From a virus, in the IMG/VR virus record IMGVR_UViG_3300032323_000920, positions 1 to 31,148 of that record: a stretch of 31,148 nucleotides of DNA; one strand, 5' to 3'. Below, one piece after another: positions 12,935-30,394 of this stretch. How positions within the stretch are numbered: the first letter of the stretch is position 1; each line of letters starts with the position of its first letter. The position numbers and the translations under genes are program-made. The notes beneath the pieces are model-generated. The model did not search any database. It saw only the letters and a program-made list of their open reading frames with translations, and was not told the DNA's origin.

Positions 12935-12945
12935 TTGTACTATTC
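12935..12945 (+). promoter_or_regulatory. Phage-specific promoter-like motif, copy 1
   Basis: TTGTACTATTC, five bases before the ATG at 12951. The same 11 bases occur at 19668-19678 and, on the other strand, at 30394-30384. No TTTG or TTG is found at -33, which separates it from the host-type promoters. Confidence 0.65.
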
Positions 12946-12950
12946 CAGTT

Positions 12951-13544
12951 ATGAGCATAACAAAAGCGCAATTGGATGCAATAAACAGCGGTATATTGGA
13001 TAGGCTGGGAATAAGTCAATCCGAAGCCGATGCAGTAATGGGTGGCTCCGTATTGGGTGAAGCCTTGGCAAATACAGCCACCGCAATAATCAAAGAACTT
13101 GAAAAAGATATCCGGGCAAAAAAACTGACCGCAACCAAAAGCCTGCTGCAAAAAATTGACCCCACAAATTATGTGGAAACTGCCAACGGGGTGACACTGG
13201 CAATCACAATGGTAAATTATTACCAATGGGTTGAGGATGGCAGGAAACGTGGTAAGCGGCCACCGATTGCATCAATCGAGGAATGGATATCTAGAAAGGG
13301 CATTCAGGTTCGCAAAAGCAAAGGTGAAAGTAAACAATCGGTTTTGGAACGCAGGCGGTCAATGGCCATAGCTATTGCCAATAAGATAGCGGCAAAGGGA
13401 ACAATAAAGCGGTTTGGCTATAAAGGTGGGGATTTCATCAAGGATGTATTGACACCGCAGACAATCGAAGCCATTGCCGGAAGCATTGGGGATGTAATTG
13501 GCAGGCAAGTTCAGGTGTTTGTGACTACCGAGGTTACCCAATAA
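12951..13544 (+). CDS. Tail completion/neck protein (HK97 gp10-like)
   Basis: The 197-aa protein carries YYQWVEDGRKRGKRPPIASI (about residues 85-104) followed by EEWISRKGI and a basic region ERRRSMAIAIANKIAAKG, a layout typical of HK97 gp10-like or tail-completion proteins of Bacteroidota phages, which join head and tail. I chose the ATG at 12951 over 12909 because 12909 lies inside the tRNA-like RNA and the motif sits five bases before 12951. It is followed by a weaker copy of the motif and the next tail gene. Confidence 0.65.
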   Translation: MSITKAQLDAINSGILDRLGISQSEADAVMGGSVLGEALANTATAIIKELEKDIRAKKLTATKSLLQKIDPTNYVETANGVTLAITMVNYYQWVEDGRKRGKRPPIASIEEWISRKGIQVRKSKGESKQSVLERRRSMAIAIANKIAAKGTIKRFGYKGGDFIKDVLTPQTIEAIAGSIGDVIGRQVQVFVTTEVTQ

Positions 13545-13554
13545 TGTATTATTT
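13544..13554 (+). promoter_or_regulatory. Phage-specific promoter-like motif, weak copy
   Basis: ATGTATTATTT matches TTGTACTATTC at 8 of 11 positions and lies five bases before the ATG at 13560, the same distance as the exact copies. Confidence 0.4.
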
Positions 13555-13559
13555 TAGGT

Positions 13560-14759
13560 ATGGCAATCACAATTGTAACCGAGCCAAACGACATTTGCCC
13601 GGTTTATTCCGATATTTCCTATGTTTTAAGCTCCACCAACTACACCCAAACCAATTTCAAGTTTGTGGCGGTGGTAAAAGATAGCGATGGCAACACCATT
13701 GCAAAGCTAAAAGCACCTATTTTCTACGGCACAACGGACAAAGGGGTGTTCAACATCAGCCGGATATTGCAGAACTATGTAACGTATGACTTCAACACCG
13801 CCACCACAACCACAGCAAAGTGCGCCAACAGCCATGTGTTGTACTCGGTTGAATTTGGCGAGGAATATGGTGGTGCAGAATATTTGAATTTGGCAAGCGA
13901 TACCGGGAAATTTGCATGGAACGGATTATTTGGTTTGTATTCAGGCGAAGCGATTGCGGATTACAAGGTGGATTTTCCATCCACATCCGTTAAATTCCTG
14001 ACAAGGGTACGCCAGCGCAGGGTGACATTGGTGCAAAATGACTACCTTTATTTTCTAAGGGCAGCGAACAACGTTGATGTGCAGATTTTAGCCTACAATG
14101 CCAGTGGCACATTGATTGCAACAAGCGTGATAGCAAACACATTTACCGACACAGCAGACAAAACACAATTCCTGCTCCGGGTTGGTGCCGGGCCTGCAAA
14201 CCTTAACGCACTGACAGCCGGGCAACTTGCATCCGGTACAGCCGGCAGCGTTGTTCCTGCAAATACCAGTTACTACACCATGCAAATTATCAGCGACCCG
14301 GGAAGCAATCCCGGCAGCGAAGCCTACCGATTTGATGTGGTGGAAGAATGCAGCAAATACAGCCCACAATATTTGTACTTCCTAAACCCATTGGGCGGCT
14401 TTGAAAGTGTCCGATGCAGCATGGCATCAACTGACCGATACAACATCAGCAGGAAGCAATTTAAGCGCAATAATTACACGCTCACTGGCGGCAGCACCTA
14501 TGGCTACGATACGAGCAAACATGGCCTGACCAATTACGCTACCGAAAAAACAAAAGAGGTAATACTGAACACCAACTTTTTGAACGAAACGGAATTTGAA
14601 TGGCTGCAAGATTTGATTGCCAGCCCGGTTGTGTTTCTCGGCAGCATCCCGGTAAATATCGTGGAAACTTCCTATGAGGTGTTTGACGATATCGCAGGCC
14701 CAAACAACCTAAAAATAACCGTGCAATATACCGAACCTGAAAGGCTGCAAAACGCATGA
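13560..14759 (+). CDS. Tail structural protein, beta-rich
   Basis: The 399-aa protein is rich in Thr, Ser, Asn and aromatic residues, with repeated beta-strand patterns and no membrane segment, as in baseplate or tail-tip proteins. I recognise no named domain, but proteins of this size between tail completion and a large hub-like protein are typical of Bacteroidota siphoviruses and could play the distal-tail (Dit) role. Its stop overlaps the next start by ATGA, suggesting the two products assemble together in fixed amounts. Confidence 0.6.
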   Translation: MAITIVTEPNDICPVYSDISYVLSSTNYTQTNFKFVAVVKDSDGNTIAKLKAPIFYGTTDKGVFNISRILQNYVTYDFNTATTTTAKCANSHVLYSVEFGEEYGGAEYLNLASDTGKFAWNGLFGLYSGEAIADYKVDFPSTSVKFLTRVRQRRVTLVQNDYLYFLRAANNVDVQILAYNASGTLIATSVIANTFTDTADKTQFLLRVGAGPANLNALTAGQLASGTAGSVVPANTSYYTMQIISDPGSNPGSEAYRFDVVEECSKYSPQYLYFLNPLGGFESVRCSMASTDRYNISRKQFKRNNYTLTGGSTYGYDTSKHGLTNYATEKTKEVILNTNFLNETEFEWLQDLIASPVVFLGSIPVNIVETSYEVFDDIAGPNNLKITVQYTEPERLQNA

Positions 14760-17518
14760 ACAACGTAAGATTAGTTTGCGGTAATGTGAGCGTGGATTTG
14801 CCGAGTGACTTCGGTATATTGATAAACAAATCCATTGCAGACATTCGGGAGCCGGAAAGCCGCAGTTCGGATTGGTCAAAGTCATTCACGCTGCCCGGAA
14901 CAAAGACAAATAACAAGCTGTTTACCCACTTGTTTGATTTGAATTTGAGCATCCGCAACACGAGTGCAACCAATTTCAGCCCGGATTTCAACCCTAACTT
15001 GAAAGCCGATGCCATTCTGCAAGTGGATGAGGTGACACAAATCGAAGGTTTTATCCGGCTGCTGTCAATAAAGGTGAACGACCTGAACCAAATCGAGTAT
15101 GAATGCTCCATGCACGGGCAACTTGCCGACCTATTTGCAAAGATTTCCGATGCCAAACTTGCTGATTTAAGCCTGACCGAGTACAATCACACCATCAGCA
15201 GCACAAATATTTTCAATTCTTGGAACACTTCCATAATAAAAAACGGCAGCACCTATGTAAATTTTAGTGGTGGTCTACCGATTGGTGATGGTTATGTTTA
15301 CGGATGGCTTGATAATGGCCAATATGCTGACTACAAAAATCTTTATACTGATGATATCACCCCTTATGTGTATGCCAAAACCGTGGTCGATAAGATTTTC
15401 AGCGGTGCCGGGTACACATATACATCGGATAGTTTTTTCAATTCTGCACAATTTAGGCGGCTTGTAATTCCATGCCCAACCCAAATGCCCATACTTTCCG
15501 AGAGCCAAATTCAGCAACGGCAGTTTGAAGCAAAATCTTCCGGCAGTACAAACTACACCAAAGGCAGTCAAATATTATTCCCGACCGAAATAACCGACCC
15601 AAGCAGCCAGTACAACCCAAGCACAAGCAAATTCACAAATGGGTATAGCGGACAGCGTTATGACTTTTTCTTTGTCTGCAAAGCGGAATTTCCATACACC
15701 ACAAACTATGAATACCAATTTTGGTTTGGACTTTATATAAACGGGGTGCGGAAAAAGTGGGTGATGATTGATACCTACAATATTAATCTTGCCAGCAACA
15801 AAGTTGAAATTGATGTGACCGTTGCATTTAGCAACATACAATTGAACACCGGGGATTTGGTTGAAATTCGCAGAGAGGAAATATTTAGGCAGGACACAAC
15901 GCTTGGTGTCACAAACTGGACAGCGACATCCGCAACATACACCCAATTACCTGACAGCAAATTCTTGAACGGAATTATTGATGGCATTTATGGCATTGGT
16001 GACACAATGGATTTGGCAGGATTTTTCACCGGGGTAGAAACAAAACAGCGTGAATTTATGCGGTGGATTTTTACCATGTTTAATCTTTACACCGAAGCCG
16101 ACCCGGACATCACCAAAAGATTGGTGGTAATGGCTCGTGAAGATTTCAACCAAACAACGGTAAAAGATTGGACAGCCAAACGTGATTTATCGCAGCAGCT
16201 TGAAATTATCCCAATGGGTGAACTTGATGCAGGCAAATACACTTTCACATACAAAGAGGGTGACGATGATGGCAATAAATTCTACAAAGAGGATTTTGCA
16301 AGAACCTATGGAGATAGGCAAATTGTAATCAACAATGACTTTGTAAAGGATGATAAAAAAATCGAAATCGGATTTGTTCCGACTTTGATTGTGAAGCCTG
16401 AAAACGAAGCCGATAAATATTTGCCGGATTTGTCAACCAACGATGGCAAACAAAAGTCGGGTGATTTGAGAATTTTGCAGTACAAATATTTGACTTGCAA
16501 AAATTACAACGTGATTGAAGGTTCCAAGCAAACGGCAACGGCTTCAAGTGTGACCGCCATCAAAACAAATTACCCTTACATGGGGCATTTGAACGACCCA
16601 ACAGCATCAACAAGCGACATCAATTTCGGGATGCCACGTTTTATCGGAGTTGCAGCAGGCACATCAATCACCAATAACAACTTATTTAACGCTTATTGGA
16701 GCAAATACATCAGCGAAATAACCGACAAAGACAGCAAGATTGTGCGTGGTAATTTCTACCTTACCCCGGCAGACATGGAAAAGTTGTCTTTCCGTGACCT
16801 TTATTTCTTCGATGGTAACTATTTCAGGCTCAACAAAATTGAAGATTACGACCCAATCAACCCATCGGTAAATATCTGCGAGTTTTTGTTCCTTAAATCC
16901 GGGCCAACATTCACCGCAAGCACCGGGGTAATTGGTGGCGGTGGAAGCCAAAGCAGTGGAACCAATGAGGAATACGACCCAAGAGGTGGCAATGTTAGCT
17001 CAAAAGTAATTCAGCAGCGTGGCATTGATATCGGAAACCTAAACAGCGCAGGGCAAGGTATAATGGTTGGAAATGGAAATGTAAATTTCGGCCAGCGCAA
17101 TGCAGCGTTTGCAACCAGCGGAGTGGCTTTTTTGTGTGATGATAGTATCGTGATTGGACAAGCTCCGCCACAGCCAGTTAATTGTAACGAGGTGTGGATG
17201 CAAGGGCAGTTGGTAGAACCTAACAATTTTGGAACAAACCGCTTTGTTTATCCAACGGCAAACTACACGGCTGAAATGGACAAGGACATCATTATCTTTT
17301 CAGCAAATGGCAACCACACAATCACTTTACCCCCGGCAGCAACAAGCACATCAAAAGCATTTTGGGTGGTGAAGAAAGGTTCAGGCGGCACATTACGCAT
17401 CGAACCCAGCACCGGGGATTTAATCGACAATCACGACCACTACAACATCAACAACCAATACGGCACAGCATACCTTGTCAGCGATGGCATTGATTGGTAC
17501 GCATTAACAAACAAATAA
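14756..17518 (+). CDS. Large tail-tip/baseplate hub protein with fibre-like C-terminus
   Basis: At 920 aa this is the largest protein. The N-terminal 150 residues (NNVRLVCGNVSVDLPSDFGI...) resemble the start of baseplate-hub or minor tail proteins of Bacteroidota phages. The middle is beta-rich. After a Gly/Ser linker (TGVIGGGGSQSSGTNEEYDP, about residue 720) the C-terminal 200 residues look like a fibre or host-contact domain, with NHTITLPPAATS and a final GIDWYALTNK, a common ending of phage tail fibres. It therefore probably combines hub and receptor contact. The tape-measure gene starts one base after its stop. Confidence 0.6.
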   Translation: MNNVRLVCGNVSVDLPSDFGILINKSIADIREPESRSSDWSKSFTLPGTKTNNKLFTHLFDLNLSIRNTSATNFSPDFNPNLKADAILQVDEVTQIEGFIRLLSIKVNDLNQIEYECSMHGQLADLFAKISDAKLADLSLTEYNHTISSTNIFNSWNTSIIKNGSTYVNFSGGLPIGDGYVYGWLDNGQYADYKNLYTDDITPYVYAKTVVDKIFSGAGYTYTSDSFFNSAQFRRLVIPCPTQMPILSESQIQQRQFEAKSSGSTNYTKGSQILFPTEITDPSSQYNPSTSKFTNGYSGQRYDFFFVCKAEFPYTTNYEYQFWFGLYINGVRKKWVMIDTYNINLASNKVEIDVTVAFSNIQLNTGDLVEIRREEIFRQDTTLGVTNWTATSATYTQLPDSKFLNGIIDGIYGIGDTMDLAGFFTGVETKQREFMRWIFTMFNLYTEADPDITKRLVVMAREDFNQTTVKDWTAKRDLSQQLEIIPMGELDAGKYTFTYKEGDDDGNKFYKEDFARTYGDRQIVINNDFVKDDKKIEIGFVPTLIVKPENEADKYLPDLSTNDGKQKSGDLRILQYKYLTCKNYNVIEGSKQTATASSVTAIKTNYPYMGHLNDPTASTSDINFGMPRFIGVAAGTSITNNNLFNAYWSKYISEITDKDSKIVRGNFYLTPADMEKLSFRDLYFFDGNYFRLNKIEDYDPINPSVNICEFLFLKSGPTFTASTGVIGGGGSQSSGTNEEYDPRGGNVSSKVIQQRGIDIGNLNSAGQGIMVGNGNVNFGQRNAAFATSGVAFLCDDSIVIGQAPPQPVNCNEVWMQGQLVEPNNFGTNRFVYPTANYTAEMDKDIIIFSANGNHTITLPPAATSTSKAFWVVKKGSGGTLRIEPSTGDLIDNHDHYNINNQYGTAYLVSDGIDWYALTNK

Positions 17519-17519
17519 A

Positions 17520-19667
17520 ATGGCAACGACAACGGTAGGAATAAAATTAGATGCAACGGTTAGCGGAGCTGACCAAGTAAAAAAGCTCAAAGATGAAATC
17601 AAGGCAGCGGAAGCAGAAGCAAAAAAGATTTCTAAAGAATTTGGAGCCAGCAGTGTTGAAGCACAAAAGGCTGCTGAAAAAGTAACGAAATTAGCGCAAG
17701 GGCTTGACAGCTTTAAATCCATAAAAACCCAAATTCGGGAAGCAACGCAGGAAGCGGTAAGATTAGCACAGCAGTTTGGGGAGTTTTCACCGGAAGCAAC
17801 CAAGGCAGCACAGAGAGTTGCCGAGTTGAAAGATACCATGCAAGATTTCCAGCAGCGTGTTCAGGCGTTAAATCCTGACAAGTTTGAAGCAGTTGGTAAA
17901 ATGGTAGGGGGTATTGCAAGTGGATTTTCTGCGGCACAAGGTGCGATGGCTTTGTTTGGTGCTGAAAGCGAAGATGTGCAAAAAACATTACTCAAAGTAC
18001 AAGGCGCAATGGCATTGGCGCAAGGTATTCAGGGTGTAATAGATGCACAAAAACAATTCAAAGTATTTGGGCAGGGTGCGGTAGCTGCATTTCAAGGAAT
18101 GACCACAGCATCCAAGGCATTCATGGCTACTGGTTTGGGATTGATTTTAACTGCGATTGCTGCCGTTGTTTCATATTGGGATGACATTAAAGGTGCTATC
18201 AGTGGCGTGTCTGCCGAACAAGAAAAGCTGAATGCACAAACACAAGCAAACCTTGAAACCAACAAAGCCAAACTTGATGCCATTGATAAATCGGAAAACA
18301 TACTAAAACTACAAGGCAAATCCGAAAAGGAAATCAGGCAGATGAAACTTGACCAGTTGAAGTTGACCATTGCCAATGCTGAAACAAATGTTAAAAATGC
18401 GAAGATTACAAAACAAGCACAAGTTGAAGCAGCCAAAAGTAATAAGGAATTTCTAAAGGGGATTTTAGATTTTATCAGTAAGCCATTGCAATTGGTGATT
18501 GACACGGTTACGGGGATTGCAAACTATTTTGGTGCTGATTGGGATTTCAACCTTGCTGAAAGTATTGCAGGCGCAATCTTTGACCCGGAAGAAACTGCCA
18601 AAGAGGGTGACAAAGTTATAGCCGAAGCAGAAGCCACATTGATGGAATTGAAAAATCAACAGGCTGGCATAATACTCTCCATTCAAAAAGAAAATCAGGA
18701 AGCAGCAAAAGCAGCATCGGATAAGCAAAAGAAAATAAATGAAGATAGGGCGAAAGCGGATGCGGACTATGCACAGCAAACAGCAGTCACTTTGAATGAA
18801 AGATTAAAAGCATTTGAAAAAGCATGGGCAATCGAGTTGCAAGGCGAAGCAAAAAAGAACTTAACCAAAGAACAACTTGAAAAAGAATATGCTCTCCGCA
18901 GGCAAGCAATAATTGACAAAAACAATGCCGAGCGTGAAGCAGCACAAAAAGCGGCAACCGAAAAAGAAATTGCTGAAACTACAAAAGCAACCGACCAATT
19001 TTTTAAGACCGAACAAGAAAAGGTTTTAGGCAATGACAAAGCACTGGCACAATTAGAGGTGCAACGACTTGAAGCGCAATTGCAAAATGCCCGTGATTAC
19101 GGACAAAGCACCGTTGATTTGGAATTGGCACTTGCCCAAAAGAAAAAAGAAATCCGAGATAAAGATGTGGCAGAAGCAAAAGCAGCCGAGGAAGCCAAAC
19201 AAGCGGCACAAATCGAAACTTTAAAGGCAGCCGCATCAGCCATCAGCGCATTGGGTGGATTATTTAAAGAAGGCAGCGATGCAGCAAAGGCAGCGGCATT
19301 GGCAGATATCGCAATCAACACGGGTATTGGTTTTGTTCAGGGTTTGGATATCGCACAAAAAGGAGCAAAAGCAACCGGGCCAGCCGCTCCATACGCATTC
19401 CCGATTTTCTATGCCACACAAATTGCAGCCGTTTTGGGTGCAGCATCAAGGGCAAGGGCTATAATGAAAGCCGGAAGCGGAAGCGGTGCATCTGGTGGTG
19501 GCGGTGCTGCTGGTGTTCCTGCTGCTCCATCGTTCACCCCGACCGCAGGCGGTGCACTCCCGGAAGAAGGTCAGTTCGGTGGCATGGGCCGGGTGTACGT
19601 TCTTGAAGGCGATATCACCAAAACACAAACAAGGGTTCGCAGGCTAAGAAATACAAGCGTGGTTTAA
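17520..19667 (+). CDS. Tape measure protein
   Basis: The 715-aa protein is Ala/Lys/Glu-rich with long coiled coils (residues 15-115 and 380-580), a hydrophobic segment FMATGLGLILTAIAAVVSYW at 201-220 and a second hydrophobic region near 585-660, then a Gly-rich linker and a basic tail. This is the standard make-up of siphovirus tape measure proteins, which set tail length and enter the host envelope at injection. By the usual 0.15 nm per residue it predicts a tail of about 107 nm. It is followed by an exact copy of the late motif. Confidence 0.9.
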   Translation: MATTTVGIKLDATVSGADQVKKLKDEIKAAEAEAKKISKEFGASSVEAQKAAEKVTKLAQGLDSFKSIKTQIREATQEAVRLAQQFGEFSPEATKAAQRVAELKDTMQDFQQRVQALNPDKFEAVGKMVGGIASGFSAAQGAMALFGAESEDVQKTLLKVQGAMALAQGIQGVIDAQKQFKVFGQGAVAAFQGMTTASKAFMATGLGLILTAIAAVVSYWDDIKGAISGVSAEQEKLNAQTQANLETNKAKLDAIDKSENILKLQGKSEKEIRQMKLDQLKLTIANAETNVKNAKITKQAQVEAAKSNKEFLKGILDFISKPLQLVIDTVTGIANYFGADWDFNLAESIAGAIFDPEETAKEGDKVIAEAEATLMELKNQQAGIILSIQKENQEAAKAASDKQKKINEDRAKADADYAQQTAVTLNERLKAFEKAWAIELQGEAKKNLTKEQLEKEYALRRQAIIDKNNAEREAAQKAATEKEIAETTKATDQFFKTEQEKVLGNDKALAQLEVQRLEAQLQNARDYGQSTVDLELALAQKKKEIRDKDVAEAKAAEEAKQAAQIETLKAAASAISALGGLFKEGSDAAKAAALADIAINTGIGFVQGLDIAQKGAKATGPAAPYAFPIFYATQIAAVLGAASRARAIMKAGSGSGASGGGGAAGVPAAPSFTPTAGGALPEEGQFGGMGRVYVLEGDITKTQTRVRRLRNTSVV

Positions 19668-19678
19668 TTGTACTATTC
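19668..19678 (+). promoter_or_regulatory. Phage-specific promoter-like motif, copy 2
   Basis: TTGTACTATTC followed by AAATT and the ATG at 19684. Identity with the minus-strand copy extends through TTGTACTATTCAAAT (15 bases). It overlaps the tape-measure stop region and would start transcription of the head module. Confidence 0.7.
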
Positions 19679-19683
19679 AAATT

Positions 19684-20697
19684 ATGGATTACCCAGTGTA
19701 TAAAATAGTGGTCAATGAGGATGATGAAACGGGCGTTGAGTTCGTTTCACTTGTTGACAAGCCAGCGATAAAAAAGGATTTCCTGCTTTTCCAAGAATTT
19801 GTTGAACCGGGTGCAAAAGAAAGCGAGGAAGAATTTATCAGCCGTTGCATCCCCGTAATGATTGGAGAAGGAATGGAACAAGACCAAGCCGCAGCCGTGT
19901 GTTATTCCAAGTGGGGCAGCAAGCAGAAATTTGAAAGTTACAGCGATTACCCGGAAGCAGCAAAAGAAAATGCAAAGGTTGCTTTGCGTTGGGCAGAAGA
20001 AAATGGATGGGGTGATTGTGGCACAGCAGTTGGAAAAATCAGGGCAAATCAGTTGGCCAATGGTGAAGCCATCAGCCGTGACACGATTGCAAGAATGGCA
20101 GGCTTTGAAAGGCACCGCCAAAACAGCGACAAAGAACTTGGTGATGGTTGCGGCCGCCTGATGTGGCTGGCATGGGGTGGCGATGAAGGTGTTGAATGGG
20201 CACAAAGGAAGTTGTCACAAATTGACAAGTCAAAATTCGCCATACAATCCGAAGAAAAGCGCATTATTTCCGGGCCCATCATGCTGGCAAACGTGCCCAT
20301 CTACCGCTTTGATGATATCCGGGGTGAGTATTATGTTACGTTTCCACCCGACACCATTTTCAGCATCGTAAAAAAGATGGCCCGTAAAGGGTTGTATAAG
20401 GCAGTCAATACCGACCATACCAATCCGGTGGATGATGGTGTGCACATGATTGAACTTTACCTGATTAACCGGGAGCGTGGTGTCATGCCGCCCAAAGGTT
20501 ATGAAGATGCCGAAGATGGAAGCGCATTTGCAAGCTACCTGATTGACAACGAGGAAATATGGACAAAGGTGAAAGCAGGCGAATGGAGAGGCTTTTCGGT
20601 TGAGGGTATGTTTGACATGGAGCAGCAGGATGATATTGCCGTAGCCATGCGTGAAATAGCTGTTATGCTCAAAAATTTTGCAGAGGAAATCAAGTAA
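19684..20697 (+). CDS. XkdF-type prohead protease with an N-terminal insertion domain
   Basis: The C-terminal half (residues 195-325) has the XkdF/Peptidase_S78_2 layout: ISGPIMLANVPIYRFDD, YYVTFPPDTI, NTDHTNPVDDGVHMIELYLI and WRGFSVEGMF, giving a candidate His and Ser for a serine protease that matures the prohead. The N-terminal half contains EEFISRCIPVMIGEGMEQDQ, then a Trp-rich block with GDCGTAVGKIRANQLANGEA and a final LMWLAWGGDEGVEWA. That block occurs in several head proteins of Bacteroidota phages and is not needed for proteolysis. At 337 aa the protein is a fusion. It opens the head module behind the late motif. Confidence 0.75.
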   Translation: MDYPVYKIVVNEDDETGVEFVSLVDKPAIKKDFLLFQEFVEPGAKESEEEFISRCIPVMIGEGMEQDQAAAVCYSKWGSKQKFESYSDYPEAAKENAKVALRWAEENGWGDCGTAVGKIRANQLANGEAISRDTIARMAGFERHRQNSDKELGDGCGRLMWLAWGGDEGVEWAQRKLSQIDKSKFAIQSEEKRIISGPIMLANVPIYRFDDIRGEYYVTFPPDTIFSIVKKMARKGLYKAVNTDHTNPVDDGVHMIELYLINRERGVMPPKGYEDAEDGSAFASYLIDNEEIWTKVKAGEWRGFSVEGMFDMEQQDDIAVAMREIAVMLKNFAEEIK

Positions 20698-20706
20698 TTA
20701 CTATTC
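20696..20706 (+). promoter_or_regulatory. Phage-specific promoter-like motif, weak copy
   Basis: AATTACTATTC matches TTGTACTATTC at 8 of 11 positions, with the whole TACTATTC core intact. It is seven bases before the ATG at 20714, the same distance as in the minus-strand copy, and one base before an alternative ATG at 20708. Confidence 0.45.
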
Positions 20707-20713: not shown

Positions 20714-21262
20714 ATGGACATCAAAATTGAACTTTCCGAAATGAAAAGCGGACTTTCTGCATTTATGGCAGAGGTGCGCCAGCGTTTCGAAAGTGCCGAG
20801 CCTGCGATGAAATTTGCTGAATTGACTTTGGTAGATGGTACAATAGTATCATTTGAAGGTGAGGAAGCGGTTATCGGAGCGGCTTTAAATGTAGTTGGGT
20901 TGGAGGGCATTGTGCCTGCTCCCGATGGCACTCACGAAACCACTGAAGGATTGCTGATTACTACCGTTGATGGCATGATTACCAACATTGAAACCAAAGA
21001 AATGGAAGCTCCCGAAGCCGAAGCCGAGGTCATTGTTGAATTTGCCAGCAAGGAAGAATTTGCAGCCCTGAACGACCGCATCGCAAAACTCGAAGAAATG
21101 TTGGTTTCCCTTGGCAGCAAGGTTGAAGACACATTCAGCGTTTTTGAAAAATTTGCATCACAAACCCCGGAGCCTGTTGCTAAACCTTTCGGCCCGGTTA
21201 AAACTGAAAAAAACGAAGCATTGAAAGGTTTTGCTTCTGCACTTAACAACAACAAAAAATAA
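20714..21262 (+). CDS. Capsid scaffolding protein
   Basis: The acidic, Glu/Ala-rich protein (182 aa from this ATG) has a predicted coiled coil around EEFAALNDRIAKLEEMLVSL (residues 118-137) and a short basic C-terminal end, the usual form of scaffolds that guide HK97-type capsid assembly and are removed by the protease. It lies between protease and capsid genes, as expected. The ATG at 20714 fits the late motif; the ATG at 20708 would add two residues. Confidence 0.7.
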   Translation: MDIKIELSEMKSGLSAFMAEVRQRFESAEPAMKFAELTLVDGTIVSFEGEEAVIGAALNVVGLEGIVPAPDGTHETTEGLLITTVDGMITNIETKEMEAPEAEAEVIVEFASKEEFAALNDRIAKLEEMLVSLGSKVEDTFSVFEKFASQTPEPVAKPFGPVKTEKNEALKGFASALNNNKK

Positions 21263-22285: not shown

Positions 22286-22801
22286 ATGTGTGTATTAACC
22301 ACCGGATTTACCTTAGATTGCAAAACCGCATCAGCAGGTATTAAGACCATTTGGCTCGTTGAATTTTCTGCGAAGTCAACCCTCACCAAATCAAGCGGAG
22401 AAGTATCCGCATTAACCCTTTCAGGAGCAAAAGTATTTTTCAAGTACGAACTTGAAAAAGAAACAGCATCCATGACTTGGAGAACCATCCCAAGCACCGA
22501 GAACGGAACCGTATTTTACGAAGCCGACTTGGTTGCACGTCTGCACAAAGTGACCACCGCCCAGCGTAACGAAATAAAACTGCTTGCTCAAAACCGTATG
22601 CTTGCCATTGCCTTAGATGCAAGTGGTGACTACTGGCTGTTGGGTGCCGATTATGGCGCACAATTGCAGCAGAGCGAAAGCAATTTCGGACAAGCGTTTG
22701 GTGACTTCAAAGGTCATGTTTTAAATTTTCTGCACAAAGAAACCGATTTACCTTTGAAAGTTCAAAGCGGTGTTGTAACTTCGCTTGCTCTTGGTTCCTG
22801 A
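22286..22801 (+). CDS. Probable major tail tube protein
   Basis: The 171-aa protein starts CVLTTGFTLDCKTASAGIKT and has alternating beta segments, including ENGTVFYEADLVARLHKVTT (about residues 73-92) and RMLAIALDASGDYWLLGADYG. This pattern is common in a protein next to the capsid gene in Bacteroidota phages and fits a tail-tube fold. It is bracketed by two intrinsic terminators, so its mRNA is separate from that of the capsid; this suggests its own dosage. No promoter motif is visible in the 14 bases before it, so it may depend on read-through. Confidence 0.55.
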   Translation: MCVLTTGFTLDCKTASAGIKTIWLVEFSAKSTLTKSSGEVSALTLSGAKVFFKYELEKETASMTWRTIPSTENGTVFYEADLVARLHKVTTAQRNEIKLLAQNRMLAIALDASGDYWLLGADYGAQLQQSESNFGQAFGDFKGHVLNFLHKETDLPLKVQSGVVTSLALGS

Positions 22802-22828
22802 TTTTAGTTTTTCATAGTTTGCAAGAAA

Positions 22829-22852
22829 GGCTGCCGAAAGGTGGCCTTTTTT
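22829..22852 (+). terminator. Intrinsic terminator with GAAA tetraloop
   Basis: GGCTGCC (22829-22835), loop GAAA, GGTGGCC (22840-22846), then T6. Seven base pairs including two G-U pairs and a stable GNRA loop. Confidence 0.88.
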
Positions 22853-22871
22853 GTTATGCTTCAAAAAAATG

Positions 22872-22882
22872 TACTACTATAC
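22872..22882 (+). promoter_or_regulatory. Phage-specific promoter-like motif, weak copy
   Basis: TACTACTATAC matches TTGTACTATTC at 8 of 11 positions and lies four bases before the ATG at 22887. It comes directly after a terminator, where a new promoter is needed. Confidence 0.4.
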
Positions 22883-22886
22883 AAAG

Positions 22887-23264
22887 ATGCTGTACATTAC
22901 CAAAGCAGGAAGCCCCGAATTAATAATCACCGGCAAGGAGAAAGTGACAATCTCCCCGGTTTATTATTTGTTGGTCTTTGAAAGCGAAATGTCGCAGGAG
23001 CGCAAGGCATTTTTAGTAACCGACACAAGCACTGCACCCGATAGATACCAACTTTTCACATTTACCGAGGGCAGCACCACAGCCAAAACGCTGGCCATCG
23101 GCACACATTACTGGTCACTATACGCACAAACATCTTCATCCAACACCAATTATTTGTTGGCCAATGAAGAAATAGACCGGGGATTGGCTTATGTAAGCAC
23201 CAGCCACACCCCATTCAATGACCACGATGTAAACCTAACCATTAAACAACACAACGTAGGATGA
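22887..23264 (+). CDS. Probable virion protein of unknown function
   Basis: The 125-aa product is beta-rich (MLYITKAGSPELIITGKEKV...) and has no known motif. An Ig-like or decoration-protein fold is possible. I chose the ATG at 22887 because an upstream in-frame ATG (22869) lies within the promoter-like motif and the longest frame starts inside the terminator. It is coupled by ATGA to the portal gene. Confidence 0.6.
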   Translation: MLYITKAGSPELIITGKEKVTISPVYYLLVFESEMSQERKAFLVTDTSTAPDRYQLFTFTEGSTTAKTLAIGTHYWSLYAQTSSSNTNYLLANEEIDRGLAYVSTSHTPFNDHDVNLTIKQHNVG

Positions 23265-25006: not shown

Positions 25007-25560
25007 TGGCAAACTTTGCATTTTTCGTAAGCGAACAAGATGTAAAAAAGAACACGCCTATTGATGAGAATGTCGATAGCAAGATTTTACAAACCGCAAT
25101 GCGTACAGCGCAGGACATCCAAATCCGTGACATCATTGGCAGCGGCCTTTATGACAAGATTTGTGACGATATCAATGGTGCCGGGCTGGCAGGCAATTAC
25201 CTTACGCTTGTCAACAAATACATTGCACCTTGTTTGTATCATTTCATTGTTACCGAAAGTATGTTGCCCATGACTTTCAAGATGATGAACAAAAGCGTTT
25301 CAACGAGGGGCGCAGAAAACAGCAATGCCATTGACCTTGACCAACTGACAAGAGTTGAGCAAAGCTATTTGAATAAGGCCCAATATTACAGCGAAAGATT
25401 GAGGGATTATTTGTGCGAAAATAACACCTTGTTCCCGGAGTTCTTAAACCCCGGCAGTGGCATCGACACAATCCACCCACAAAACCAAGCTTTATTTGGT
25501 GGCTTCATTTTAGATAGTGACGATAACTGCTTTTACAATTACGACTTTCCAAAAGGATGA
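25006..25560 (+). CDS. Head-tail connector, DUF6712-like
   Basis: The 184-aa helical protein (MANFAFFVSEQDVKKNTPID...; IIGSGLYDKIC near 42-52; YLNKAQYYSERLRDYLCENN near 119-138) fits the DUF6712 family of probable gp6-like adaptors placed after portals in Bacteroidota phages. The start at 25006 shares one base with the portal stop, and AAGGAGG stands nine bases before it. That is one of very few clear Shine-Dalgarno sequences here, in agreement with a need for efficient translation. Confidence 0.7.
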   Translation: MANFAFFVSEQDVKKNTPIDENVDSKILQTAMRTAQDIQIRDIIGSGLYDKICDDINGAGLAGNYLTLVNKYIAPCLYHFIVTESMLPMTFKMMNKSVSTRGAENSNAIDLDQLTRVEQSYLNKAQYYSERLRDYLCENNTLFPEFLNPGSGIDTIHPQNQALFGGFILDSDDNCFYNYDFPKG

Positions 25561-25691
25561 GCAAGGTCAGGGAAAAAAACGAAAACAAACTGAAGATATT
25601 TTTAAATGGTAACGATAAACCAACTACTGGAAGCACTGGACACGGCAGGCCAAAACCACAAGCAAATAAAGGCAACGCTCATAAACGTTGA
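25557..25691 (+). CDS. Possible small basic protein overlapping the next gene
   Basis: An ATG at 25557 overlaps the connector stop by ATGA and opens a 44-aa basic frame (MSKVREKNENKLKIFLNGND...) that runs 86 bases into the next gene in another frame. The coupling favours translation. The low-complexity second half, rich in Gly, Lys and Pro, could be a shadow of the 25606 gene. It may serve only to carry ribosomes to that gene's start. Confidence 0.3.
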   Translation: MSKVREKNENKLKIFLNGNDKPTTGSTGHGRPKPQANKGNAHKR

Positions 25692-26070
25692 CCCCAATAT
25701 TAATACAAGTTGTGAGCAGCTATATCCGTTGATGCGGATTTTTCCTGATGGTAGTCAGGTGACCGTTGACCAAGTGCGTTATCGTTTTGCGGTTGCCATT
25801 ATGGATAGGCACCGGGAAGATTTCACCGATGCAGTGGAACGAATAAGCGATATGCACACGGTAATGCTTGACATTTACTCAATGCTTCGCTACGTTTATC
25901 GAGGCAACATTGCAGGCAGTTGGAATATCAACGATGCAATCACCCCGTTTTATGACGACAAAACCGACATCGTTGCCGGGGTTGCGGCAGTGATTGAATT
26001 TGTCTGCCCGAATTTGCGTGATTATTGCGACACACCCAATAACAATTTAACTTTTCCAACAATTAATTAA
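25606..26070 (+). CDS. Probable head-tail joining or tail terminator protein
   Basis: The 154-aa protein has VRYRFAVAIMDRHREDFTDA (about residues 58-77), then a helical stretch and a C-terminal strand PFYDDKTDIVAGVAAVIEFV followed by CPNLRDYC. This resembles the small tail-terminator or joining proteins that follow DUF6712 connectors in Bacteroidota phages. Its ATG has no ribosome-binding site and lies within the possible 44-aa frame, so translation may be coupled to it. Confidence 0.55.
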   Translation: MVTINQLLEALDTAGQNHKQIKATLINVDPNINTSCEQLYPLMRIFPDGSQVTVDQVRYRFAVAIMDRHREDFTDAVERISDMHTVMLDIYSMLRYVYRGNIAGSWNINDAITPFYDDKTDIVAGVAAVIEFVCPNLRDYCDTPNNNLTFPTIN

Positions 26071-26078
26071 AAATAAAA

Positions 26079-26348
26079 ATGAGTACAGCATTAGATTTTA
26101 TGAGCGGCTTCACTGGCTGCAAGGTTATTTCAAACACAAGCGCAAACACTGGCCGTTTTCAGGGCTTTGTAGTGAACGCAGATGCGGTTGTGTCTGCTTG
26201 TTTAGACGAAACAGGAGCCAGCCTTATGACCGCAATCGGTTTGACCGGAGTAACCTTGAAGCAGGGCACGTTTATCAGCGTAAGCGGTGATAAATATATC
26301 AGCAGCATCACGCTCGCAAGTGGCAGCATTGTAGCGTATAACGTATGA
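26079..26348 (+). CDS. Small virion-type protein of unknown function
   Basis: The 89-aa product is beta-rich with little charge (TGVTLKQGTFISVSGDKYIS, then TLASGSIVAYNV) and lacks membrane segments. Size and place just before a fibre-like protein suggest a decoration or fibre-attachment protein. It overlaps the next start by ATGA. Confidence 0.55.
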   Translation: MSTALDFMSGFTGCKVISNTSANTGRFQGFVVNADAVVSACLDETGASLMTAIGLTGVTLKQGTFISVSGDKYISSITLASGSIVAYNV

Positions 26349-27169
26349 TTAGGCGAGGTATTGGTGTTCAAAGCTATGTTGCGGCAGGCGGTGGCGTAAC
26401 CGATGCCGATGCACAAGCATTCATCACGGCTGCTGCCATAACTGATGCCACCCAGCAGAGTGCAATCAATACTTTGGTGGTTGACCTAAAAGCGTATGGT
26501 GTATGGACAAAGATGAAAGCACTTTATCCTTTTGTTGGTGGTACTGCATCAACTCACAAATGGAACTTGAAAGACCCAAGGGACTTGGATGCTGCGTTTA
26601 GATTGGTGTTTTCAGGAGGTTGGACACACAGCAGCAATGGGGCTTTGCCAAATGGAACTAATGCTTTTGCAAATACATATTGCAATCCACAAACGCAGTT
26701 AGCTTTACAAAGCAACCACATCAGCCATTATTCAAGGACACAAATCAGCAATACAAATACGCATGACATGGGCTGCGAAAGTGGTGCAGGATTGAATTTT
26801 AACTTATTTCAATATTTCAATTCAATCAGCAACAAGGGTTTCAACGATGGTTTATATCCTTCAAATGCTGCTGTTAGTAATACCACCAACACACTTGGTT
26901 TTCAAATAGGTACACGGACATCGAATGTGGTGTTGAAATTGCATTTTAACGGCTCGTTGTTAAATACCAACACCAATACCAAAACCCAGACGAGCTATCC
27001 AAACCATAACGTTTTTATAGGTGCAACTAATTCAAACGGCACAGCAGGAAATTACTCTGCTCGCCAATGTGCCTTTGCTTCCATTGGTGATGGTTTAACG
27101 GATACCGAAGCAGCCAATTTTAGAACCGCAGTTCAAGCATACCAAACTACTTTATCACGCAACGTATGA
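26345..27169 (+). CDS. Putative tail fibre/receptor-binding protein
   Basis: The 274-aa protein has a short N-terminal helical part (DADAQAFITAAAITDATQQS, then INTLVVDLKAYGVW) and a large C-terminal domain rich in Asn, Thr and Gly with a lectin-like or LamG-like appearance (YPFVGGTASTHKWNLKDPRD, GALPNGTNAFANTYCNP, RTSNVVLKLHFNGSLL). The YPFVGGTA/KWNLKDPRD pattern occurs in adhesin-like proteins of Bacteroidota phages. It probably binds the host surface. It is coupled by ATGA on both sides. Confidence 0.65.
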   Translation: MIRRGIGVQSYVAAGGGVTDADAQAFITAAAITDATQQSAINTLVVDLKAYGVWTKMKALYPFVGGTASTHKWNLKDPRDLDAAFRLVFSGGWTHSSNGALPNGTNAFANTYCNPQTQLALQSNHISHYSRTQISNTNTHDMGCESGAGLNFNLFQYFNSISNKGFNDGLYPSNAAVSNTTNTLGFQIGTRTSNVVLKLHFNGSLLNTNTNTKTQTSYPNHNVFIGATNSNGTAGNYSARQCAFASIGDGLTDTEAANFRTAVQAYQTTLSRNV

Positions 27170-27414
27170 CCTTAAAAGATTTAACCCCGGAACAATACAG
27201 CACTTATGTAGGGCTGCTAACTGAAATTGAGCATGAGGTACTGGTCGGCCAATGGTATGCACCAGACAGCTATTTCAATCCCATTCAGGATGCAGATAAT
27301 AATTGGGTTATTTCCGTTGAAGAAATTGCCCAATGTGTTAACCCATTGTGTATGTGGGTAAATGATTTGCCTCTTATTCCTTATGTTTCGAAACCATCAC
27401 CGCCCTTTCCATGA
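27166..27414 (+). CDS. Small protein of unknown function
   Basis: The 82-aa acidic protein (MTLKDLTPEQYSTYVGLLTE...) contains several Trp and Pro residues and no known motif. It lies between the fibre-like gene and the lysis genes and is coupled to both by ATGA. It may be a fibre chaperone or attachment protein; this is context only. Confidence 0.6.
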   Translation: MTLKDLTPEQYSTYVGLLTEIEHEVLVGQWYAPDSYFNPIQDADNNWVISVEEIAQCVNPLCMWVNDLPLIPYVSKPSPPFP

Positions 27415-27569
27415 AAAATGTAGGTGAAAATATCGTTGGAAGTTGGTTGCTATGGATAGCAGGAGCAGCCGCAAATTTGCTTCCGATAATTCAGTTTTTG
27501 TCTTTCACCGCAGCACTGATTTTGTCCTGCATCGGTATTTATAAGTTTTTCAAACATGGCAAAAAGTAA
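27411..27569 (+). CDS. Small two-span membrane protein, holin candidate
   Basis: This 52-aa protein starts MKNVGENIVGSWLLW. It has two hydrophobic stretches (SWLLWIAGAAANLLPIIQFL and FTAALILSCIGIYKFF) and ends with a basic KHGKK. Size, spans and charged tail fit a small holin. The ATG overlaps the previous stop by ATGA. It precedes another membrane protein and a spanin-like protein, which supports a role in lysis. Confidence 0.65.
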   Translation: MKNVGENIVGSWLLWIAGAAANLLPIIQFLSFTAALILSCIGIYKFFKHGKK

Positions 27570-27675
27570 AGAGGTAAGCAAATGGCAACCGAAAAGCAAG
27601 CGAAAATTGGGCAGGCACACGAAGTCGGCCAACAAACACAAGTCAGCAAAGCCGTATCAAGGGCAGGGAAGATGA
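27556..27675 (+). CDS. Very basic 39-aa protein
   Basis: The ATG at 27556 lies inside the end of the holin-like gene and the TGA at 27673-27675 overlaps the next ATG by ATGA. The product starts MAKSKEVSKWQPKSKRKLGR and ends YQGQGR, a Lys/Arg-rich composition and ending I associate with tiny conserved proteins of Bacteroidota phages. It explains why the longer frame starting at 27582 has a low-quality N-terminus: that stretch is its shadow. It might bind nucleic acid. Confidence 0.6.
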   Translation: MAKSKEVSKWQPKSKRKLGRHTKSANKHKSAKPYQGQGR

Positions 27676-27851
27676 AATTAAAAAACTATTTTGCACCAAC
27701 ACCTAAAAGGTTCCGTGTAATTGGTGACAGCATTGCGGCTGCATCGTTGTTTATTGCCGGGCTCAACATTGACCATCCCAAACTTATGCTCATTATCGGG
27801 GTGGCCGGGGCCGTTGGCAAATTCATCACAAACTTTTTCGCAGAGGAATGA
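27672..27851 (+). CDS. Small membrane protein, holin-like
   Basis: From the ATG at 27672 the product is 59 aa with a short amphipathic start (MKLKNYFAPTPKRFRVIGDS) and two hydrophobic segments (AAASLFIAGL and LMLIIGVAGAVGKFITNFF). I prefer this start to one at 27582 because it overlaps the stop of the 39-aa gene by ATGA. Two small membrane proteins before a spanin suggest a holin and a partner such as an antiholin. Its own stop overlaps the spanin-like start by ATGA. Confidence 0.65.
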   Translation: MKLKNYFAPTPKRFRVIGDSIAAASLFIAGLNIDHPKLMLIIGVAGAVGKFITNFFAEE

Positions 27852-28360
27852 GGTATGTCGGGATTATTCTTTTTTTGCTTTTTCTCGTTGTGTTTAGCAA
27901 TCGGGGCTGTAAAAGCACACCACAAGTTGTAAACAATACGGACAGCATGGCCAACATAGTGGACAAATACAAGGCAGACATTGACAGCATTAAGGCCGAG
28001 TATCTTTCACTCCTGAACAGCCGTGCCAAAAAGACAAAAATCCTTCGTGATTTTAGGACAAAATATGTCCACGACACCATCACGCTGGACAAACTTGTTG
28101 GAGATACCGCCAAACTGGAAATAATCCTATCCGAAAACAAACTCATGCAGGAGATATTGTTTGACGATAGCATTGTCATTTCAAATCAAGAGCAGGTGAT
28201 TATCATGCAGGATAGCGTTATTTCGTATTTAGAAGCCATTACAGCCAATCAAATCAAAGAAATAAACCAATGTACCAAAGAGTTTGCGAAACTGCGTAAA
28301 AAGGCAAATAAATGGAAAGCCATTGCGGTTATCTTTGGAATAGTGGCCGGAGTGAAATAA
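27848..28360 (+). CDS. Rz-like inner-membrane spanin
   Basis: The 170-aa protein has an N-terminal membrane anchor (YVGIILFLLFLVVF, residues 3-16), a long coiled-coil periplasmic part (residues 30-150, Lys/Asp/Leu-rich) and a hydrophobic C-terminus (WKAIAVIFGIVAGV). This is the design of an i-spanin that joins inner and outer membrane for the last step of lysis in Gram-negative hosts. A Cys at position 21 is not in a good lipobox. No separate outer-membrane partner was found in the overlapping frames; the C-terminal hydrophobic segment may replace it. Confidence 0.6.
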   Translation: MRYVGIILFLLFLVVFSNRGCKSTPQVVNNTDSMANIVDKYKADIDSIKAEYLSLLNSRAKKTKILRDFRTKYVHDTITLDKLVGDTAKLEIILSENKLMQEILFDDSIVISNQEQVIIMQDSVISYLEAITANQIKEINQCTKEFAKLRKKANKWKAIAVIFGIVAGVK

Positions 28361-28365
28361 ATTTG
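28334..28365 (+). promoter_or_regulatory. Bacteroidota-type promoter for the endolysin pair
   Basis: TTTG (28334-28337), 20 bases, TAAATTTG (28358-28365), then CTTT and the ATG at 28370. It lies over the end of the spanin-like gene and would give a near-leaderless lysis transcript from host polymerase. Confidence 0.75.
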
Positions 28366-28369
28366 CTTT

Positions 28370-28579
28370 ATGTTCACACTAATTAAACAGCACGGCATCC
28401 AAGATTTTTACCTTTGCCGGGATGGCAAATGGCATCCATCGGCCGAACTTAACGCAGCTATTCGCCCAGTATCTTTCCGCAACCAAACCGAAGCAAAAAA
28501 GGGATGGGAGAAAATTGGCAAGCCAGCTATGGTGTTCATGCAGGAAATTTACAGCCGGGATAAAACGCTATTACAATGA
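28370..28579 (+). CDS. Small protein of unknown function before the endolysin
   Basis: A 69-aa protein (MFTLIKQHGIQDFYLCRDGK...) with several aromatic residues and a basic middle. I recognise no family. It is the first gene after the promoter and is coupled by ATGA to the endolysin-like gene, so it may modulate lysis. Confidence 0.65.
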   Translation: MFTLIKQHGIQDFYLCRDGKWHPSAELNAAIRPVSFRNQTEAKKGWEKIGKPAMVFMQEIYSRDKTLLQ

Positions 28580-29205
28580 AAAACTTGCAGGAATTTCTTA
28601 ATACAAAGGGTGAAAACCTGAAAGTGGATGGAGTGGTCGGCCGTTACACTTTGGATGCGTTAGACCGCTACATTCAGGCCGAGTGTATCAAGCGCAAATG
28701 GTACACCCACGGAAATGGATTGGTTTGGATAAGGACTGATAACACATTCAGCAACAAGTTCGATGATTTTGTCGCAGTTTACAAAGGGCACCGGATTGTC
28801 TATGCGGCTCCGGCTTCCACCACTGCCGGGGATTTTTATGTTTACAACCCATTGACCGTTGGTGGCATTACTGGCACAGCCGTTGCAGTGGAGCAGCAAG
28901 TTCAAAACAGCCATAAATTTGTAAGCGGTGCAAATTGGGCCAATCTTTGGCTTGGTGCGCCATACTTTCAACAAGTGCTTCCGATTGAAATCTACCGGGA
29001 TGGCAACAAAAACAACCAAGTGGACAAAGTGACGAAGCAAAAAGGGCTTTATGGTATCAACTTTCACCGGGCCGGGGTGGGTAATTTGGTCAACAAGTGG
29101 TCGGCAGGCTGTCAAACGGTGCCGGATGCACATTGGTTTGAGATTGTCAAACGATTTAACCCAGGTGACGTTATTGCTTTTACCTTATTTTGCACATCCG
29201 GATAA
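28576..29205 (+). CDS. Endolysin-like protein: PG-binding domain plus L,D-transpeptidase-type catalytic motif
   Basis: Residues 1-33 (LQEFLNTKGENLKVDGVVGR...) form a short peptidoglycan-binding repeat with the typical VDGVVGRYTLDALDR sequence. The catalytic region near 160-182 has INFHRAG (His 164) and WSAGCQTV (Ser 176, Cys 179), resembling the H...S-x-G-C arrangement of L,D-transpeptidase-fold enzymes. Such a fold in a lysis position may cut or remodel peptide cross-links rather than sugar chains. There is no signal peptide, so a holin is required, in agreement with the upstream membrane proteins. It is the last gene of the plus-strand arm. Confidence 0.7.
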   Translation: MKNLQEFLNTKGENLKVDGVVGRYTLDALDRYIQAECIKRKWYTHGNGLVWIRTDNTFSNKFDDFVAVYKGHRIVYAAPASTTAGDFYVYNPLTVGGITGTAVAVEQQVQNSHKFVSGANWANLWLGAPYFQQVLPIEIYRDGNKNNQVDKVTKQKGLYGINFHRAGVGNLVNKWSAGCQTVPDAHWFEIVKRFNPGDVIAFTLFCTSG

Positions 29206-29212
29206 GCAAAAT

Positions 29213-29249
29213 TTGCAAAAATTGCTCAATGGAATGAGCAAAATTGCAA
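29213..29249. terminator. Bidirectional hairpin between convergent genes
   Basis: TTGCTCA (29222-29228) pairs with TGAGCAA (29235-29241) around ATGGAA, extended by the outer pair TTGCAA (29213-29218) and TTGCAA (29244-29249). It separates the lysis gene end (29205) from the convergent minus-strand gene end (29257) and is flanked by A/T-rich runs on both sides, so it can stop transcription from either direction. Confidence 0.65.
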
Positions 29250-29256
29250 AATGCTT

Positions 29257-29517
29257 TTACGATACAGCACTAATTCTCTCAACAAGTGTTGCCATGTCGA
29301 TTTTGACAAGGTACATCAGCTCACCACAAACCACACAGCTAATGGGTTTCTTTTTTGTGCTGCGTAAATCCGGCATTATTGCATCAATTTTGTAAAAACA
29401 AACCGGGAATGTTTCTGCTTCGTATAGGTCATCGTTTGGTTCGATGCCCATATTTTCAAGCATGGTGCTGTGGTCATCGGATGCCACAACTTCAAGACAC
29501 AATGCTATCTTAAACAT
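29257..29517 (-). CDS. Small CxxC protein of unknown function
   Basis: The 86-aa protein has an acidic N-terminal half and ISCVVCGELMYL (residues 59-70), with a CxxC pair that may bind metal. No family is recognised. It overlaps the end of the metallophosphoesterase gene by eight bases, so both are read from the same motif-driven transcript. Its end meets the plus-strand lysis gene at a shared hairpin. Confidence 0.65.
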   Translation of the reverse strand: MFKIALCLEVVASDDHSTMLENMGIEPNDDLYEAETFPVCFYKIDAIMPDLRSTKKKPISCVVCGELMYLVKIDMATLVERISAVS

Positions 29518-30376
29518 ACATTTTTTGGCAAAAGGAAAACTCAGGTATCACTTTGGTATCTGCAAATGATGTGCTAAGTGTCAACCACATCGCTCCCAGT
29601 GGTTTGGGTGGCCTGCCCCTTTCAATGTGGAAGCCTGCAAAGCCATCTTCATATTCTTCCTTGTAGCTTGATGTGCGGATTTGGTGAACATCCCGGATTT
29701 TGATTTTCTTTTGGTGGCTGTCGTAAACTTCCACCGGGTTGATGTGGTGATACAATTCGTGAACGTGGCCTTGCCATATACAATCGTAGCCTTCCATGAA
29801 GCTCATCATGCGCTGGTCTTGAATTACTCCTTTGGTAACAATACCACCACCACCAAATCCATGATAATATCGGAGTGTCCACTTCCTGCGATGGCTATCT
29901 GCGCTTAATTGGAATTTGAAATCAACCACCCCACCATAACCGCCAGCGTGAATTTCGGCCCCGTGCGTTGTGTTGAATAGGTCAACAAATCTTTGTATAG
30001 GGTCAGTTTCCAAAGCCTTCAAAATAGCGGTTTCGTGGTTTCCATAACCAACAACGAGAATGTGGTCTTTGTACGGGCCAAACCAATTAACCGCATCTTG
30101 AATAACCGCATCAATGTAGTTGGCCTTATTATGCTCCGGCAGGATGTCTTTCTTGCTTCGCCTTGGGTCATACTTGCCCTGCATCATACAAAAGGTGTCA
30201 CCATTCAGGATGATTTTTGCATCACGCTTTACGGCTTCGTCAAGGTGGTTTTTCAGCAGCACTCGGTCGCACTTGGGGTTATCCCAGTGTAAGTCCGAAA
30301 GCAGCAGTAATTTGATTTCTTTTTCGCAATATACAGCATGCACGTTGCGAGATACACGGGTTATTTGTTTGGGCAT
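29510..30376 (-). CDS. Calcineurin-like metallophosphoesterase
   Basis: From the ATG at 30376 the protein is 288 aa. All metal-site blocks are present: LLSDLHWD (D28, H30), NGDTF (59-63), YGNHET (111-116), YYHGFG (H172) and QGHVHE (202-207). Phage enzymes of this fold include nucleases and phosphatases of nucleotides, RNA or DNA ends; the substrate cannot be deduced. A longer frame from a TTG at 30394 exists, but that TTG is the start of the late motif, so the ATG is preferred. It is read against the lysis genes and probably late, given its motif. Confidence 0.85.
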   Translation of the reverse strand: MPKQITRVSRNVHAVYCEKEIKLLLLSDLHWDNPKCDRVLLKNHLDEAVKRDAKIILNGDTFCMMQGKYDPRRSKKDILPEHNKANYIDAVIQDAVNWFGPYKDHILVVGYGNHETAILKALETDPIQRFVDLFNTTHGAEIHAGGYGGVVDFKFQLSADSHRRKWTLRYYHGFGGGGIVTKGVIQDQRMMSFMEGYDCIWQGHVHELYHHINPVEVYDSHQKKIKIRDVHQIRTSSYKEEYEDGFAGFHIERGRPPKPLGAMWLTLSTSFADTKVIPEFSFCQKMYV

Positions 30377-30383
30377 CTTATTT

Positions 30384-30394
30384 GAATAGTACAA
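30384..30394 (-). promoter_or_regulatory. Phage-specific promoter-like motif, copy 3 (minus strand)
   Basis: TTGTACTATTC on the minus strand, then AAATAAG and the ATG at 30376. It directly follows the terminator of the early region, sharing the end of its T-tract, which argues for a fresh transcription start here. Confidence 0.7.

Follow-up and report, generated by a model that had tools for sequence, protein, structure and literature searches.

Late boxes in a small phage genome

The DNA analysed here is the virus record IMGVR_UViG_3300032323_000920 of IMG/VR, a stretch of 31,148 nucleotides (nt) that is called the window throughout. A direct terminal repeat of 123 base pairs (bp) stands at both ends (1-123 and 31026-31148), and the window is therefore a complete phage genome of about 31.0 kilobases (kb). 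Central to this work is a short sequence, termed the late box, which recurs just upstream of gene starts on both strands, together with a sigma-like gene that is its candidate reader. We infer the late timing from the content of the genes that follow the box. The sites, the terminators beside them and the proposed reader are as follows.

6531-7061 (+): putative phage sigma factor of 176 amino acids with sigma2 and sigma4 domains, of the extracytoplasmic function (ECF) type; a TIGR02937 match, fold and co-divergence make it the proposed reader of the box
12938-12945 (+): late box TACTATTC, its T 13 nt before the ATG at 12951; part of an exact 11-mer
13547-13554 (+): late box TATTATTT, 13 nt before the ATG at 13560
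19671-19678 (+): late box TACTATTC, 13 nt before the ATG at 19684 (head protease homolog)
20699-20706 (+): late box TACTATTC, 15 nt before the ATG at 20714
22829-22852 (+): hairpin and T run resembling a terminator, ahead of the box of 22887
22872-22879 (+): decayed late box TACTACTA, 15 nt before the ATG at 22887 (gene preceding the portal gene); the window copy reads ATGTACTACTATACAAAGATG
30384-30391 (-): late box TACTATTC, 15 nt before the ATG at 30376 (metallophosphoesterase, 29510-30376 (-))
30399-30418 (-): intrinsic terminator; borders directly on the late box that precedes 30376

The exact 11-mer TTGTACTATTC is present in three copies (12935-12945 (+), 19668-19678 (+) and 30394-30384 (-)) against an expectation of 0.03, and none of 100 dinucleotide shuffles reaches three, so that chance does not explain it. 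The initial annotation had placed these copies 5, 5 and 7 nt before their ATGs and had noted that those at 19668 and 30394 agree over 15 bases, and both observations hold. With two mismatches permitted there is no enrichment in the window (7 copies seen, 8.25 expected). The core TACTATTC has four copies in the genome, all of them 13 or 15 nt upstream of a gene start. Since loose copies are not enriched, it is the exactness of the core and its constant spacing to the starts that count, and an unbiased ranking of all 7- and 8-mers from upstream windows has pieces of the same box at its head. The looser copies proposed at 13560, 20714 and 22887, with 8 of 11 matches, are all present. The register given for the last one, 4 nt from the start, is probably wrong because relatives read GTGTACTATTTGAATTAGATG, with the box 7 nt before the ATG.

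Relatives and the concerted change of the box

Many relatives of this phage are found in IMG/VR, and about 70 related contigs were compared for their late start sites. Protein identity divides them into clade A (the window and near-identical contigs), clade B (about 90%), clades C1 and C2 (mostly 55-90%) and the further clades D and E. Terminase relatives in named genomes include an integrated prophage of Mucilaginibacter pedocola TBZ30 (NZ_MBTF01000037.1, about 292-315 kb; L541, L555 and L556), where most structural genes have distant homologs; the hosts are therefore Bacteroidota. Among 50,697 GenBank phage records (INPHARED) there is no relative of the DNA, capsid or sigma protein, and the sigma proteins of the window, clade D and M. 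pedocola have no match in that phage collection.

Absence of the motif from related phages had been named at the outset as an observation that would count against it, and the relatives do carry it. For six orthologous late genes the sequence ahead of the start was taken from every contig, and across the roughly 70 contigs the box changes in concert at five to six orthologous sites, those of clades D and E included. Clades A and B have GTACTATT (wider form GTA[CT]TATT[CT]). Clade C has CTAC[TC]TTT (wider form [CG]TAC[TC]T[TA]T[AT]), with the variants CCTACTTTTAAAGATATG at the protease gene, CTACTTTTATGGGTAGATG at the gene before the portal and CTACTTTTATAGGTAGATG at the phosphoesterase, and clades D and E have GTACATTT. 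Half of the clade C late boxes continue into GGTAG, which gives a dyad CCTAC...GTAGG (e.g. L391, L404 and L418). That separate sites within a genome turn into the same new word is explained by a shared reader that has changed; common descent of one site cannot account for it.

The individual sites follow this pattern. The box before 12951 is retained in L105, L107 and L110 and stands upstream of a tRNA-like gene elsewhere (L112, clade C1). At the 13560 site, relatives read CGTACTATTTTAGGTATG, clade C GTACTTTTATAGGTA and clades D and E GTACATTTTNNNNN-GTG. The 22887 site reads TACTATTTGAATTAGATG in close relatives, CTACTTTTATAGTTGATG in clade C, GTACATTTAGGGTTGATG in clade D and TATACTTAACTATATG in M. 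pedocola, where the site orthologous to that of 19684 is TATACTTAATTACATG. At the minus-strand gene, clade C has CTACTTTTATANNNAGATG.

Ranking upstream k-mers genome by genome returns each genome's own box or an overlapping piece of it at the top (TACTATTC in the window, TACTTTTA in C1, CTACTTTT in C2 and GTACATTT in D), and nothing clear emerges from single E and D fragments or from L540. Copies of a clade's pattern lie at gene starts in its own clade (4/4, 5/12, 5/11 and 4/5 of the genome copies) and never at starts in the other clades. The M. pedocola prophage carries TATACTTA or AATACTTA, followed by five nt and an ATG, at four gene starts, namely those of the tape measure gene and of the homologs of 12016, 19684 and 22887; two of these are orthologous to window sites. 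The start codons concerned lie at 299613, 302686, 307233 and 310182 of the prophage contig. The strict form of this pattern has three copies in the 7-Mb genome, all within the prophage. What stays invariant in the box is an initial TAC or TAT and a T-rich 3' end; the 11-mer itself is specific to its clade.

Wider searches contributed little. Scanning the whole DNA collection for both box types with patterns of 14 fixed bases yielded chance matches in unrelated contigs and hardly anything else, and a sigma-70-type promoter scan, whose model comes from the wrong phylum, gave no clear enrichment. Distant relatives of the phosphoesterase (53-64%) are without the box, another sequence directly preceding the gene.

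A probable promoter element at the position of the host -7 box

As judged from comparative sequence data, the repeat is a promoter box, neither a chance recurrence nor a translation motif. It occupies the same place relative to the ATG as the host-type -7 box of the early genes. Two of the sites had been said to follow terminators, and an intrinsic terminator is indeed called at 30399-30418 (-), conserved with sequence changes in clade B; the hairpin at 22829-22852, which has a T run, is weaker and varies in sequence among relatives. In clade D hairpins also directly precede two boxes, those of the 12951 homolog and of the minus-strand gene, and in C2 the former has one too. Both clades have exchanged the minus-strand gene itself for a non-orthologous phosphoesterase (L496:2926-3924 (-) and L476:193-1197 (-)), and the box of the clade's type stays in place. 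The idea of a variant -7 box is borne out by this position, by the terminators and by the form TAnnTTTA in sister clades. The consensus of the Bacteroidota primary sigma, TAHHTTTG, is not matched by the late boxes (TACTATTC, TACTTTTA, TACATTTA and TACTTA); the early genes do match it.

The late box had also been described as having no -33 element. None is common to all sites, and in this sense the description stands, although TTTG 17-21 nt upstream of the box, never found at four of the six sites, is always found at 20714 and 22887. Being absent from four late sites, TTTG at -33 is not required; it could strengthen the two sites that have it.

Early genes of these phages have textbook Bacteroidota promoters, often TTTG-N19-TATATTTG. 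Four host-type -7 boxes of the window, each 4 nt before its ATG, illustrate the arrangement:

828-835 (-): TATATTTG, ATG at 823; TTTG 19 nt upstream
2015-2022 (-): TATATTTG, ATG at 2010; early, predicted leaderless
12004-12011 (+): TAAATTTG, ATG at 12016
28358-28365 (+): TAAATTTG, ATG at 28370

Of the distinct sequences with TAHHTTTG ahead of an ATG, 124 have a spacing of exactly 4 nt and 27 one of 5 nt, and nearly all other spacings reach single to low double figures; the two cultured Bacteroidota phages 11b and B124-14 have no such peak. In Flavobacterium johnsoniae the box spans T-12 to G-5, and transcription starts 4-5 nt beyond it (PMC6847099). This mapped distance equals the early geometry, so the early mRNAs look leaderless. 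By the same geometry, late transcripts would start 0-3 nt before the ATG and be leaderless or nearly so. Such mRNAs are rare in Bacteroidota: leaders below 10 nt make up 3.7% in Bacteroides thetaiotaomicron (PMC7366714), and 5.5% are leaderless in F. psychrophilum (PMC9723704). Near-leaderless transcripts in both the early and the late phase look to be the most unusual feature of these phages, one that the initial annotation had missed.

A putative phage sigma factor as the candidate reader

The product of 6531-7061 had been put forward as the obvious candidate for reading the box, and its profile match and a divergence that tracks the box type favour it, the predicted fold looking sigma-like as well. 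Residues 18-169 of its 176 match positions 15-163 of the 165 of TIGR02937 (sigma70-ECF) with E=5.2e-6. An AlphaFold model (predicted local distance difference test, pLDDT, 73) has two helical domains. The top 25 PDB matches in Foldseek are nearly all sigma factors, mostly of the ECF type (best probability 0.98, E=0.015; template modelling scores are low because the domains float), and in a viral structure library the model matches phage sigma factors. Pfam and PHROGs searches gave sub-threshold hits only. TAL-effector hits from a PDB sequence search were rejected as spurious.

Identity among the sigma proteins is high within a box group (A-B 90%, C1-C2 66%, D-E about 67%) and falls to 33-40% between groups, the homolog of the M. 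pedocola prophage standing at 24-26%. The early neighbours lack this break: percent identities for A-C1 and C1-C2 are 92 vs 85 in the primase-helicase (g4602), 71 vs 69 in the glycosyltransferase (g9736) and 87 vs 87 in the terminase. The phage's own sigma factor very probably reads the late boxes.

Two small genes adjoin the sigma gene. A short open reading frame (ORF) resembling an HNH endonuclease (6329-6547 (+)) overlaps its start. On the other side, a small membrane-like protein with a CxxC motif (7033-7299 (+); L541:8452-8685) adjoins it in the clades looked at, the Mucilaginibacter prophage included, and is a possible partner or anti-sigma of the sigma factor.

With high probability, in our judgement, the late promoters have one core element, the late box (-7/-10 class), which a phage ECF-type sigma reads on the host RNA polymerase. 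Early mRNAs would be started by the host sigma exactly at the ATG. The phage sigma, made from the middle of the genome, would then replace the host primary sigma on the host polymerase and direct it to boxes of the TACTATTC type. On the plus strand these boxes would serve the gene groups for tail, protease/head and portal, on the minus strand the phosphoesterase gene. Initiation would follow 5-8 nt after the box, at the start codon or 1-3 nt before it. The initial annotation's interpretation is supported as essentially right, including its regulon on both strands, from tail to head plus the minus-strand metallophosphoesterase; its modified polymerase is better read as the host polymerase with a phage sigma.

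Weighing the explanations

Several observations weigh against this account. TTTG is retained 17-18 nt upstream at two of the six sites, and a good box is missing at some expected sites (the 20714 site in clade D, and the decayed 22887 box of the window). The nominal P values of the start-site test used patterns picked after seeing the sites, and the cross-clade table and the k-mer ranking serve as their controls. The sigma profile score of 26.2 bits lies below the curated cut-off of 42.9 bits, and none of the PDB fold matches reaches E<0.001. The correlation between box and sigma rests on about four independent groups. Nor is the linkage unique to sigma: the late structural genes capsid and portal also group as A/B vs C (capsid A-C1 72, C1-C2 86). 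This would be expected if the late module and its reader travel together.

The rival that survives best, though an unlikely one, is that a different phage DNA-binding protein, an activator or repressor, binds the box and acts on the polymerase with the host primary sigma, the sigma-like protein not being the reader. The phage does encode other small regulators, such as a DnaA-like helix-turn-helix protein at 2522-2974, TTTG is kept at the -33 distance at two sites, and an operator-like dyad TAC-N6-9-GTA occurs in half of the distinct clade C sites. The dyad, however, is nearly absent in A (2/20) and absent in D (0/8), and because it is limited to clade C the operator idea is kept as a rival only. 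In addition, the box sits at the -7 position itself with no host -7 box overlapping it, and the early gene whose identity follows the box type is the sigma gene.

It is very improbable that a host alternative (ECF) sigma factor, not a phage factor, reads the box. Promoters of alternative sigmas can resemble -7 variants, as SM5, TAnnTTGY, of F. psychrophilum does (PMC9723704), but the box type tracks the phage sigma group across sister phages and the strict M. pedocola pattern is confined to the prophage.

A signal for translation initiation or mRNA stability just before the start codon is more improbable still. The fixed distance to the ATG, 5-7 nt at most sites, and the lack of Shine-Dalgarno sites in Bacteroidota (PMC6847099) would suit it. 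In clades B and C1, however, the box of the 12951 homolog has shifted to 26 nt before the tRNA-like gene, more than 100 nt from the ATG that the 3' end of this gene abuts, which excludes a pure translation signal. The box also stands directly after terminators, beyond the point at which any transcript from upstream would have stopped; it is present at some gene starts only, and it differs between clades whose host ribosomes should be similar. In L112 the tRNA-like gene (L112:8139-8251) matches the Rfam tRNA model, its anticodon region carrying an insert of 47 nt. Its counterpart in the window (12809-12925) retains the T arm and the acceptor but is recognised by neither Rfam nor ARAGORN.

A promoter of a single-subunit phage RNA polymerase (T7 class), suggested by the long conserved stretch of clade C (CCTACTTTTATAGGTAG, ending TATAGG), was rejected as hardly credible, given that only clade C has the long form and that no polymerase ORF exists in the complete 31-kb genome, the largest ORF outside the structural region encoding 543 amino acids with Toprim/DnaB domains.

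Meaning

Taken together, the data make it fairly probable that a widespread family of small, uncultured freshwater Bacteroidota phages uses leaderless mRNAs (leaders of 0-3 nt) in both phases, with the host sigma serving the early genes and a fast-evolving phage sigma the late ones, and that sigma and box have jointly changed specificity three times or more, so that there are four or more natural pairs, which are probably orthogonal. In the literature searched, neither a late promoter nor a sigma factor of a phage was found to have been worked out in Bacteroidota. The M. pedocola prophage offers a culturable model in which the phage sigma explanation is directly testable. Within the family, sigma and promoters have shifted their specificity jointly, at several sites of each genome; such a natural series lends itself cleanly to the study of rewiring and is a possible source of orthogonal promoters for Bacteroidota. 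Finally, if near-leaderless transcripts are the rule in these phages, the question arises of how they are translated, given that in Bacteroidota only some 4-6% of the mapped mRNAs are of this kind.

Comparison with known systems

The late boxes resemble the promoters of the Bacteroidota primary sigma (sigma-ABfr, TTTG/TAnnTTTG), which the early genes use, in box position, in the initial TA and in the T-rich end (PMC6847099, PMC7366714). Unlike those promoters, they have ATTC, TTTA or TTA as their last bases in place of TTTG, and no -33 element is common to them. With the late promoters of T4, read by gp55, they have in common an 8-bp box of the -10 class with no -35 conservation and late transcripts of either polarity (PMC2988020); a single box of this class without a -35 element, on both strands, is what the late sites present. 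T4 differs in its use of the gp45 sliding clamp and gp33, in a gp55 modelled on sigma domain 2 and in its TATA-type box, and the window is not filed as T4-type.

Closer in design is phiEco32. The middle and late promoters of its gp36, tAATGTAtA, have a single conserved element with the start 6-8 bp downstream (PMC8948821, PMC4331800). As proposed here, a phage sigma acts there on the host polymerase through a single element, at a handful of promoters before groups of structural genes. The window differs in host phylum and box, in a sigma that keeps a sigma4-like domain, in its 31-kb genome, in its near-leaderless mRNAs and in the family-wide co-divergence of sigma and box. No sequence relation to phi32_gp36 was found in the phage collection, the box differs in sequence from its promoter, and membership is not claimed. 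Phage 7-11, with SaPh711_gp47 (GTAAtg-16-aCTA), shares with these phages that the sigmas of related phages have diverged and recognise late promoters which differ in sequence yet hold similar places in the genome (PMC8948821). Its promoters, unlike those of the window, have two elements, and only two sigma types were compared there. The concerted change of sigma and box seen here parallels that between phiEco32 and 7-11, with at least four types within one phage family.

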